From: Micavibrio aeruginosavorus ARL-13
GTDB taxonomy: Bacteria; Pseudomonadota; Alphaproteobacteria; Micavibrionales; Micavibrionaceae
Reading direction: 5' to 3'
Assembly: GCF_000226315.1 (NCBI RefSeq)
Contig: NC_016026.1
Location: 1,860,001 to 1,924,000 of the forward strand
Length of the DNA: 64,000 bases
Part shown: positions 16,430 through 19,474 of the stretch, piece by piece
Position numbering within the stretch: position 1 is the first letter of the stretch
Layout of the letters: every line of letters starts with the position of its first letter
Notes under the pieces: generated by a model
What the model was told of the DNA's origin: nothing
The model's database searches: none
Seen by the model: the letters and a program-made list of their open reading frames with translations, nothing else
Translations under genes and position numbers: made by a program

Positions 16430-18286
16430 TTAATTGGCCTGGCGACGTAAGAAAGCCGGAATATCCAGGTCTTCATCATTTTGCAGACCCGGCTTGGTGG
16501 CTACTGGCGCATCGATGGCCAGTGCCTGCTGAACCGGAGCATGGTGCCCGGCGCGCAGACCACCCGCATTGGTGTGGTTTTCGCCAGCATGCGGAGCGGC
16601 TTGTTCACGAACATCCAGCACGTCCTCTTCTTCGTGGCGGCGTGTAAACCGCTCGAAAATGGACGGGGTGCGTTTTTTCGGCTGGGCCGCCTGTTGCGTT
16701 GCCACGGATGGCGGACGCAGGGTCAGACCAGAGGGTTGTACCGGAGCTTCGACCGTGCGGTGCATCGGTGCGGGAGCGCCATAGGACACAACATCCGGCT
16801 GGCGTTCCGGTTCAACGGCACGCGGCGGGATAAAGGATTCACCGTAACGGCTGCCGCGCATCGAGTCTTGCGTTGGGCGGGTTACCGGTTGCGGTGCGGC
16901 TTGCTGCTCATACTGATGATAGTACGATTGCTGAGCCTGAACGGTTTCCTGGACCTGAACCTGCACTTGGGCTTGTTCCTGCACATAGGCCCGAACCGGA
17001 GCCACTTCAACGGCCTGCTGTTCAAACATGTCCATTTCAACGGATTGGTCCATCTTGCGCGCAGCGGAACCAACCATTGAACCGGAAACAGCCGACGTTG
17101 CCGCCGTGCGAACCGGAGCCGATACAGCGGAATGCGTCGTCGTTGGGCGAACCGGCGCGGACGTTTGTGCCGGAGCCGTTACCTTTGCAGCCGGAGCCAC
17201 AACAGCATCAGCCGGACGCGCGGTGCGATCAACGCGGCGTTCCGCCTGTTGTGCGCTGGTCAGCGCGTTCAGAACCGTGTTGGTTACGTTTTTTGGGCCA
17301 CGTGATTTGGCAACAGCCTCAACATCGATACCCGTTGCGAAAACGGATACGCGCATCACGCCATCCAATGTGCCATCGAACGTCGAACCGAAGATGATAT
17401 TGGCATTCGGGTCAACTTCGTCACGGATGCGGTTACAGGCCTCGTCCACTTCGAACAGGGTCATGTCGTAACCGCCGGTCACGTTGATGATCACGCCATG
17501 GGCGCCCTTCATCGATACGTCGTCCAGCAACGGGTTGTTGATGGCGGCTTCGGCGGCCTCAACGGCACGGCGTTCGCCAGTGGCTTCGCCCGTCCCCATC
17601 ATCGCCTTGCCCATTTCCATCATCGCGGTGCGGATGTCGGCAAAGTCCAGGTTGATCATACCCGGCATAACCATCAGATCGGTCACACCGCGTACGCCGG
17701 ATTGCAAAACGCCGTCCGCCATTTTGAAGGCATCGGCAAAGGTGGTTTTTTCGTTCGCAACGCGGAACAGATTCTGGTTCGGAATGACGATCAGCGTGTC
17801 GACATAGTCTTGCATCTCAGCAATACCAGCCTCGGCCATCTTCATGCGCAGGGCGCCTTCGAAATGGAACGGCTTGGTCACAACACCGATGGTCAGAATG
17901 CCCTTGTCGCGGCACGCCTTCGCGATAACGGGTGCAGCGCCCGTTCCCGTACCACCGCCCATACCGGCCGTGATGAAGGCCATGTTCGCGCCATCCAGGA
18001 AGCGCAGAACATCATCCAGAGATTCTTCAGCCGCAGCGCCACCGACTTCCGGTCGCGCACCCGCGCCCAGACCGCCGGTTACGGCCATACCCAACTGAAC
18101 CTTGTTTTCACACAGGGAACCATCGAGCGCTTGCGCATCGGTATTGCAGACCACGAACTCCACACCCTCCAGGCCGGAGGTGATCATATTATTGACGGCA
18201 TTGCCGCCCGCGCCGCCGACACCGACGACCGTAATTTTCGGAGACAATTTCTTAACCTCTTTGTGCTGCATTCTTACATTGATCAT
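16430..18286 (-). CDS. ftsZ: Cell division GTPase FtsZ
   Basis: 618 residues with a strong GGAGGTCC ribosome-binding site 9 bases before the ATG. The tubulin-like GTPase core covers about 15-335, with [14 protein letters not shown] and the tubulin signature GGGTGTG at 110-116. A long Gln/Ala/Val-rich disordered linker follows (about 345-600; [17 protein letters not shown]). The conserved C-terminal peptide [11 protein letters not shown] ends the protein and would bind FtsA and other anchors. The linker makes it longer than most FtsZ proteins but is typical in kind for alphaproteobacteria. It polymerises into the Z ring at mid-cell. The upstream region carries nine GANTC sites and a DnaA box. 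Confidence 0.98.
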
Positions 18287-18642
18287 TTGGAAAGGACCTC
18301 CGTGGACGCGGTGGAGTTGACTACTCGTGATTCTATGGGGGATGATTCGCCTTTAAAAGAGCCTTCGCGCCACAGAAGCGCGGAAAAGCCCAGAAATACG
18401 CGCCATTTCCCCCGTTTAATTTATTGTTTTTCAGATGAGGACGAACCGCTAAGTGATTCATCCGACTCAAGACTTTCCCAGTGTGGCAAACCCACCTTGA
18501 TTCGGAAAGAGTCACACAACGTTTTCCTGTGGATAAATATTGATTCTGTGCATGGATTCAATACGATTCGTCCACAGGCATCAGGGGATGAAGGACGGGA
18601 TAACCATGGGGATGATCAGGAAACGCCGACAGCACAGGTGTT
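18287..18642 (-). promoter_or_regulatory. ftsZ upstream region with nine GANTC sites and a DnaA box
   Basis: This 356-bp gene-free stretch lies upstream of ftsZ. GANTC motifs (the CcrM methylation site) start at 18329, 18344, 18455, 18464, 18499, 18509, 18542, 18555 and 18565: nine in 241 bp, where about one is expected. Several pairs are spaced 9-10 bp. A consensus DnaA box, TTATCCACA on the minus strand, is at 18528-18536. In Caulobacter, ftsZ transcription is controlled by DnaA, CtrA, GcrA and CcrM methylation. No TTAA-N7-TTAA CtrA site was found here. The promoter itself is not pinned down. Confidence 0.7.
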
Positions 18643-19431
18643 TTAGGGCGCAATCCCGTACAACGTGGCCCAAAATTCGGCGCGCGGATTGCGGTGATGG
18701 CGTTCAAATTCACGACGCCGCTGGGCCGCATCCGCATCGATGAAAATTTCCGGGTCAAAGGTCACAACCTGTCCCGTTGGTAGAATGCCGACATTCTGGG
18801 GTTCGGAATCATAATCAAACCAGTCGCGCGGATAGGCTTTGTTCGTCCCCCACGACAGATCCAGAATGGCATTGGTATAGGCACGATCACCCCTCGCACC
18901 CACACGTTCGGGCAAGCGCGTCAGCGGCACCACCTCGGGCAGCATTTCAATGCGCACCTGATCAAAATCATCCAACATATTCTGGTTACTGACAAAAGCC
19001 TGCAACACAGTTGGATGAACGGGGCGCAGTTGGCGGCAATTATGATCAGCCTCAACCCGAACAACGCGCATTTCACCGCTGGCCCCATGCCGCGCACGAA
19101 ACGCCACGGCGCGCCCACCATTCCCCAGATAGGATAAATCGGTATAGCCCTGATCGGCGACAAAGTCGGCCATGCGTTTTTGCACAGCATCGGGCATTGG
19201 ACCCCACGCCCGCATCGCCAAATTCCCACCTAGATTACAATAGGCAGGCGCCAATTGATTCAAAGCATTAAATGCATCGCTTAACGTGGCATAGCGGGTT
19301 GCGGGAACATCGTTCGTGGGTTGCCAGATCGCATCGTGATTGACCATGCCATCCGCATGATAGCTGGCACGCGCCTGTGCGCGCAGCCATTCGATCCGCC
19401 CACTCCATGTCCGTATATTGGGTTTTGCCAT
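18643..19431 (-). CDS. Unknown protein with kinase-like motifs between ftsA and ftsZ
   Basis: 262 residues from the ATG at 19431; the open frame reaches 19566, overlapping ftsA, but that extension is not coding-like. No signal peptide or membrane helix. The centre reads YLGNGGRAVAFRARHGASGE then RVVRVEAD, resembling the glycine-rich loop and beta-3 Lys strand of protein-kinase folds, though the Lys would be Arg or Val. Later, DSEPQNVGILPTGQVVTFDPE resembles the catalytic-loop Asn and the Asp of the metal-binding motif in kinase-like phosphotransferases. No canonical HRD or DFG is present, so it may be an atypical kinase or a pseudokinase. It starts 43 bases after the ftsA stop and may be co-transcribed with ftsA. 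Function unknown. Confidence 0.7.
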   Translation of the reverse strand: MAKPNIRTWSGRIEWLRAQARASYHADGMVNHDAIWQPTNDVPATRYATLSDAFNALNQLAPAYCNLGGNLAMRAWGPMPDAVQKRMADFVADQGYTDLSYLGNGGRAVAFRARHGASGEMRVVRVEADHNCRQLRPVHPTVLQAFVSNQNMLDDFDQVRIEMLPEVVPLTRLPERVGARGDRAYTNAILDLSWGTNKAYPRDWFDYDSEPQNVGILPTGQVVTFDPEIFIDADAAQRRREFERHHRNPRAEFWATLYGIAP

Positions 19432-19474
19432 AGGGGTGGTTATAGCGGGTTTATCCCACCCCAACCACCGGATT

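Follow-up and report, generated by a model that had tools for sequence, protein, structure and literature searches.

A dense GANTC array with a DnaA box upstream of ftsZ in Micavibrio aeruginosavorus, a likely methylation-responsive control region

The Micavibrio lineage is known for predatory species. We analyzed a 64,000-nucleotide stretch of the M. aeruginosavorus ARL-13 chromosome (positions 1,860,001-1,924,000 of the single 2,481,983-bp contig), referred to here as the window. Within it, ftsZ occupies 16430..18286 on the minus strand and encodes 618 amino acids from an ATG at 18286, with a GGAGG ribosome binding site visible by eye just upstream. Its product matches TIGR00065 at 386 bits (cut-off 295) and is above cut-off for both PF00091 and PF12327. 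Upstream of the gene lies a 356-bp intergenic control region (18287..18642) that contains nine GANTC sites. On recount these start at 18329, 18344, 18455, 18464, 18499, 18509, 18542, 18555 and 18565, exactly where the initial annotation of this DNA had placed them. A 263-aa ORF (18643-19434, minus strand) separates ftsZ from ftsA; by eye, a glycine loop like that of protein kinases can be made out in it, and searches of Pfam and NCBIfam returned nothing at E 0.001. Most aligned relatives have ftsA ending directly before the ftsZ leader.

Read toward ftsZ, the region begins with a poorly conserved GANTC pair, 18565 and 18555, whose members are 10 bp apart (18555..18569). The next site, 18542 (18542..18546), stands 5 bp upstream of a DnaA box on the ftsZ strand. 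This box, TGTGGATAA at 18528-18536 or TTATCCACA on the minus strand, is a consensus box, as had been claimed, and the single perfect one in the region. It is followed by a second pair 10 bp apart, 18509 and 18499 (18499..18513), and then by a core, TGAGTCGGATGAATCACTTAG (18449..18469, minus strand), in which two further sites, 18464 and 18455, are 9 bp apart. The spacings of 9, 10 and 10 bp for the three neighboring pairs likewise match the first description. The last two sites are 18344 (18344..18348) and, nearest to ftsZ, 18329 (18329..18333).

Two promoters can be predicted among these sites, both on the minus strand. For the distal one, P1, we propose a -35 element TTTCCG (18503..18508) and, 17 bp after it, a -10 element CACACT (18480..18485), giving a predicted start near 18473; several relatives have TTCACG or TTGACA at the place of this -35 element. 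A hexamer scan of the window's own row preferred an alternative -35, TTCCGA, with a 16-bp spacer. P1 was not detected by a scan for E. coli-type consensus promoters. That scan did return the proximal candidate, P2, with a -35-like TTTAAA (18352..18357) followed after 16 bp by a -10-like TAGAAT (18330..18335), as well as one further match on the plus strand (18317-18346). Relative to the predicted P1 start, GANTC sites fall near -30, +6 and +15, all within about 40 bp, with the pair 18509/18499 at the predicted -35 and the core at roughly +6 to +19. The DnaA box would lie at about -63 to -55. At P2, site 18344 is within the spacer and 18329 overlaps the -10 (CATAGAATC on the ftsZ strand), again within about 40 bp of the predicted start.

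The nine GANTC sites at ftsZ are not explained by chance. Dinucleotide shuffles of the 356-bp gap gave a mean of 1.9 GANTC and a maximum of 7, and nine or more were reached in 0 of 5000 of them and in 0 of 5000 mononucleotide shuffles. GANTC is also the commonest word of the form xyNzw in the gap, with nine copies against six for the next word. Over the whole window the site is rarer than in shuffled sequence (133 vs a shuffle mean of 244). We compared this density with a sample made up of the window and 38 stretches of 20 kb taken at even intervals, together 824 kb and thus a third of the genome. There, GANTC occurs at 2.0 per kb and, by a simple longest-ORF rule, is 1.6-fold denser in intergenic than in coding DNA (2.97 vs 1.88 per kb). 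At the sampled rate, the 241 bp spanned by the array would hold about 0.5 sites, compared with the initial figure of about one. The densest 241-bp clusters in the sample are those at ftsZ, with nine sites, and upstream of ccrM, with eight, followed by seven places with five, one of which is between rpsT and dnaA. Random intergenic regions of equal density had been named as the result that would speak against a special role; the sampled intergenic regions are less dense, and 251 of 394 sampled gaps had no GANTC under a rough gap-calling rule, by which the ftsZ gap measured 634 bp and held ten sites. The 9-bp spacing alone is not distinctive, because the whole genome has 26 places where two GANTC are exactly 9 bp apart. 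Enrichment of GANTC between genes is reported to be general in alphaproteobacteria with CcrM (PMC3973325), and an earlier survey refrained from deducing control from the number of sites (PMC2877005).

The array belongs to a wider pattern among relatives. FtsZ was found in 52 of the 58 genomes of the order, this one included, and its start could be placed in 51 (G007 was dropped). In the 350 bp upstream of ftsZ, the 31 genomes of the family contain 155 GANTC against 21-53 for seven palindromes of the same form, making GANTC about 3-7 times commoner; the 20 genomes of other families contain 54 against 13-25 for the control palindromes. Counts per family genome range from 1 to 10, and 11 of the 31 have only 1-3. 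Among named contigs, 51 of 54 loci could be used; this set overlaps the order genomes and is not independent of them. It gave 2-10 sites in 500 bp at 14 Micavibrio-like loci and 0-4 at 37 others, as grouped by us from the alignment.

We aligned 30 family rows, counting this genome's own and omitting the near-identical G002. Conservation of the sites in relatives, a check proposed at the outset, divides the array. Kept in place in at least half of the rows are the 9-bp pair 18455/18464 (23 and 24 rows), 18329 (15 rows) and the DnaA box, which is in register in 27. The other six sites recur in 1 to 9 rows: 18499 in 9, 18509 in 4, 18555 in 3, 18542 and 18344 in 2 each, and 18565 in 1. The 9-bp pair occurs in 24 of the 31 family genomes and in 0 of 20 from other families. 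Its middle base is exclusively A or G, and the pair is followed two or three bases later by TTA in 22 of the 30 rows. At the place of the P1 -10, 16 of the 22 rows having pair and TTA show a hexamer NA(C/G)A(A/C)T, in a scan that rewards A at position 2 and T at position 6; variants among the relatives include CACAAT, GACACT and GAGACT. Outside the core, delimited by a rule of our own, the 30 rows hold 87 GANTC against 43.0 expected by shuffling for all sites, and 24 of the 30 rows exceed their own shuffle expectation.

The genome encodes the proteins that could use such sites. The presence of a CcrM homologue had been left to be checked, and there is a single full gene of the CcrM type (L002:1453-2736, with an alternative internal start at 2664), whose product is above cut-off for PF01555 and PF18755. 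Residues 33-386 match the solved Caulobacter CcrM 6pbd with E 5.6e-153, and the CcrM equivalog model NF050803 is matched with E 1e-182 and 606.8 bits, under its cut-off of 830. The homologue is predicted to be specific for GANTC. GANTC methylation together with a CcrM homologue has been reported for a Micavibrionaceae genome from a metagenome (PMC9296519). GcrA is encoded as well (PF07750, 153.7 bits, cut-off 26.9; 7ye1, E 1.7e-32), its residues 1-45 aligning with the DNA-binding domain of 5yiu, and a dnaA gene is present. A CtrA-like regulator is also encoded, with 75% identity over a 59-residue query of approximate sequence; the 300 bp upstream of ctrA contain a single GANTC, at -299, and no array. 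We rejected a MipZ candidate: PF09140 gives two weak matches in this genome, and the same model matches all 14 control genomes. A copy of the NCBI taxonomy places Micavibrio in Bdellovibrionota, whereas the CcrM, the GcrA and the closest relatives recovered in this analysis are those of alphaproteobacteria.

GC skew over the sampled stretches puts the replication origin close to base 1 and the terminus at about 1.25-1.31 Mb. On this map gcrA (2.26 Mb) lies close to the origin, dnaA (0.40 Mb) about a third of the way to the terminus, ftsZ (1.88 Mb) about halfway and ccrM (1.19 Mb) close to the terminus. Five GANTC in 128 bp with a DnaA-like 9-mer (L146:19709-19887), at most 0.3 kb from the contig end, lie where the skew puts the origin.

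The GANTC array is not unique to ftsZ. The one at ccrM is better conserved in spacing, and those at gcrA and dnaA are smaller. Upstream of ccrM, eight GANTC and a DnaA box are found at L127:11077-11207 (genome about 1,186,477-1,186,607), where by eye TTCACC-17-CACACT is followed directly by GACTC. The 733-bp gap between rpsT and dnaA contains six GANTC, five of them within 146 bp (L115:6696-6841) and about 510-660 bp before the dnaA start; no DnaA-like box was found at this cluster. The perfect box TTATCCACA has 24 copies genome-wide. Within 200 bp of these copies there are nine GANTC at ccrM, nine at ftsZ and six at gcrA, compared to 0-4 at the other 21. Because six or more GANTC accompany the box only at these three places, the combination of DnaA box and array marks three genes of one cell-cycle circuit.

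Two other groupings of boxes and sites were seen along the way. At L179:1492-1514 (genome 803,891 and 803,905), two perfect inverted DnaA boxes stand 14 bp apart with GANTC nearby, just after what by eye is an RNase H-like gene; this may be a DnaA-regulated or titration site. At L181:1512-1639 (genome about 1,081,811), four GANTC lie within 65 bp after a perfect box and a near-match, where the ORF MTFDSASILTDK begins.

Matches to ccrM occur in 57 of the 58 order genomes, and we compared 30 of these loci, using stretches that include the first ccrM codons. They contain 173 GANTC against 21-44 for control palindromes. In G013 and G017 the array is upstream and not coding, because in-frame stops lie between it and the likely start. 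Five slots recur across 26 family rows, in 22, 19, 24, 24 and 18 of them; their spacing is 13, 24, 11 and 7 in the window's genome and varies slightly elsewhere. The middle base at slot -160 is C in 11, T in 6, G in 3 and A in 2 of the 22 rows that keep it, and at -112 it is C in 15, T in 6 and A in 3. At -160, -123 and -112, N takes three or four bases, with GA and TC nearly fixed; it is almost constant at -147 and always T at -105. The middle base varies at conserved slots while GA and TC stay, which argues for selection on GANTC itself.

Multiple GANTC at ccrM appear to be a wider habit, because 28 ccrM upstreams from genomes of other orders, the best-scoring of 118 with a match, are enriched too (121 GANTC against 15-30 for controls, mean 4.3). 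These upstreams from other Alphaproteobacteria resemble the family's in this enrichment, but the family's 11+7 triple occurs in 0 of the same best-scoring 28. The DnaA box at ccrM is kept in 2 of 26 family rows and hence is no family rule. For gcrA, four of 30 loci were dropped for a missing start motif, and the remaining 26 upstreams hold 67 GANTC against 11-24 for controls. The counts are uneven and 8 of the 26 have none, including one upstream of just 42 bp. The gcrA array is thus no family rule either, although the DnaA box at gcrA is retained in 21 of 24 rows.

In C. crescentus, an extended motif, YGAKTCK, has been used for GcrA in a study that did not recover it in Brevundimonas (PMC7987155). 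It fits 185 of 1630 sampled genome sites (11%) and 39 of 239 intergenic ones (16%). With P-values that are only guides, because the test was chosen post hoc and the relatives' sites share descent, the motif fits six of the nine sites at ftsZ (P 0.001 vs intergenic), three of eight at ccrM (marginal alone, P 0.05), three of six at gcrA and three of six at dnaA, or 15 of 29 pooled (P 1e-5), and in the 14 named relatives it fits 29 of 72 ftsZ-upstream sites vs 72 of 329 elsewhere (P 0.002).

The array is real, non-random and partly conserved, and the best reading is that it fits as a variant of a CcrM/GcrA-controlled promoter. We consider it likely that the ftsZ control region, probably with two promoters, reads chromosome methylation and DnaA in the CcrM/GcrA/DnaA manner of Caulobacter, with an array where Caulobacter has a single critical site. 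What carries the case is less the number nine than three other features: a core that is conserved, a middle base that varies at ccrM, and arrays that coincide with DnaA boxes. Because the parts are the same as in Caulobacter, with more sites, we infer methylation-gated, GcrA-assisted transcription of ftsZ with DnaA input. CcrM would methylate the GANTC sites upstream of ftsZ, and the N6-methyl marks would recruit GcrA with sigma-70 RNA polymerase to P1 and P2, raising ftsZ transcription. DnaA, at its box near -59 of P1, would supply a replication-initiation signal. Passage of the fork would leave the whole array hemi-methylated, presumably in mid S phase, given the position of ftsZ about midway between origin and terminus. 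CcrM, encoded near the terminus behind an array of its own, would restore full methylation late. Both ftsZ and ccrM are probably timed in this way by the state of chromosome copying and re-marking. Several close sites could give a stronger or sharper response than the single critical site of Caulobacter ftsZ, in keeping with the original suggestion that methylation and DnaA may time ftsZ, with site density acting as a switch. We take the direction of the effect, in which methylation turns ftsZ on, from Caulobacter, and of all the steps it is the least secure.

Comparison with described systems shows both the likeness and its bounds. The C. crescentus ftsZ promoter shares with this region the presence of GANTC and a genome encoding CcrM and GcrA; in Caulobacter, DnaA is reported to regulate gcrA and ftsZ (PMC4287350). 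The Caulobacter ftsZ promoter needs one conserved CGACTC between -35 and -10, and its apparent activity is described as weakest when unmethylated, middling when hemi-methylated and strongest when fully methylated (PMC3708114). In contrast to that one site (PMC3708114), Micavibrio has nine, a 9-bp pair past the predicted start, and distal and proximal predicted promoters. GcrA is reported to form a dimer, to favor methylated GANTC and to recruit polymerase, with re-methylation being distributive (PMC3667746), and to act via sigma domain 2 (PMC7403470). In Caulobacter ctrA P1 a GANTC stands about -29 from the start (PMC4287350), compared to about -30 for the predicted P1 here; that promoter is switched on by hemi-methylation (PMC8116508), whereas Micavibrio ctrA has no GANTC array. 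Other described promoters with more than one GANTC are the Caulobacter mipZ promoter, where GcrA binds two juxtaposed GANTC (PMC3667746), and Agrobacterium repABC/ori2, where three GANTC in one promoter were mutated individually (PMC11514494). The former differs in having two sites, not nine, and in serving another gene, and the latter in belonging to a replication module with fewer sites. The regulons of CcrM and GcrA are said to differ between close genera (PMC7987155). The Caulobacter logic need not carry over, because in Agrobacterium ftsZ reportedly hardly responds to CcrM depletion while gcrA rises (PMC11514494). Our literature search, which covered largely papers outside subscription, found no description of such GANTC arrays in Micavibrio.

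Other explanations can be weighed against the same data. It is conceivable, though we regard it as doubtful, that the number of sites is itself the timer. Selection would then keep the count high while individual places turn over, the fork would leave all sites hemi-methylated at the same moment, and re-methylation one site after another would postpone full ftsZ activity by a delay that is graded or sharpened. A related device at ccrM, with more fixed spacing, would time CcrM's own synthesis.

We think it unlikely that an ordinary transcription factor binds a box that happens to contain GANTC, such as TGANTCA, with methylation incidental. The ftsZ pair, with its middle base restricted to A or G and a TTA shortly after it in 22 of 30 rows, is what gives this idea its appeal. 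The ccrM array is at odds with it, since N varies at -160, -123 and -112, yet N is almost or wholly constant at -147 and -105. Further against such a factor, GANTC is enriched upstream of ftsZ, ccrM and gcrA alike, and the sites fit YGAKTCK.

Less likely still is an array that serves mainly in replication-linked sequestration or as a methylation sink, with a SeqA-like reader of hemi-methylated GANTC or DnaA titration, and not mainly in promoter activation. Joint clustering of DnaA boxes and GANTC at three loci would suit such a role; however, ftsZ has a single perfect DnaA box, and its conserved sites lie at predicted promoter elements.

Passive accumulation in a gap richer in A+T, driven by base composition or by relaxed constraint, is highly improbable. 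It could draw on the 1.6-fold intergenic excess and on the reported generality of this bias in alphaproteobacteria (PMC3973325), but it is largely contradicted by the 0 of 5000 shuffles, by control palindromes that are about 3-7 times rarer in the family's upstreams, and by the first rank of the ftsZ cluster in the sample. That the conserved pair belongs to an RNA leader, as its place just downstream of the predicted P1 start might suggest, is the least credible of all, given no Rfam match to E 1 in 18200-18700 and an 11-sequence consensus fold of just -1.66 kcal/mol with five pairs.

Methylation-responsive control of ftsZ with DnaA input, which we prefer, would extend the CcrM/GcrA/DnaA cell-cycle logic from Caulobacter to the Micavibrio lineage, in a form where many methylation sites, and not one, mark ftsZ and ccrM. 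The fixed spacing at ccrM and the pair at ftsZ would offer natural variants with which to study how GcrA reads a pair of sites separated by about one helical turn, and to learn whether the number of sites sets the timing of division.
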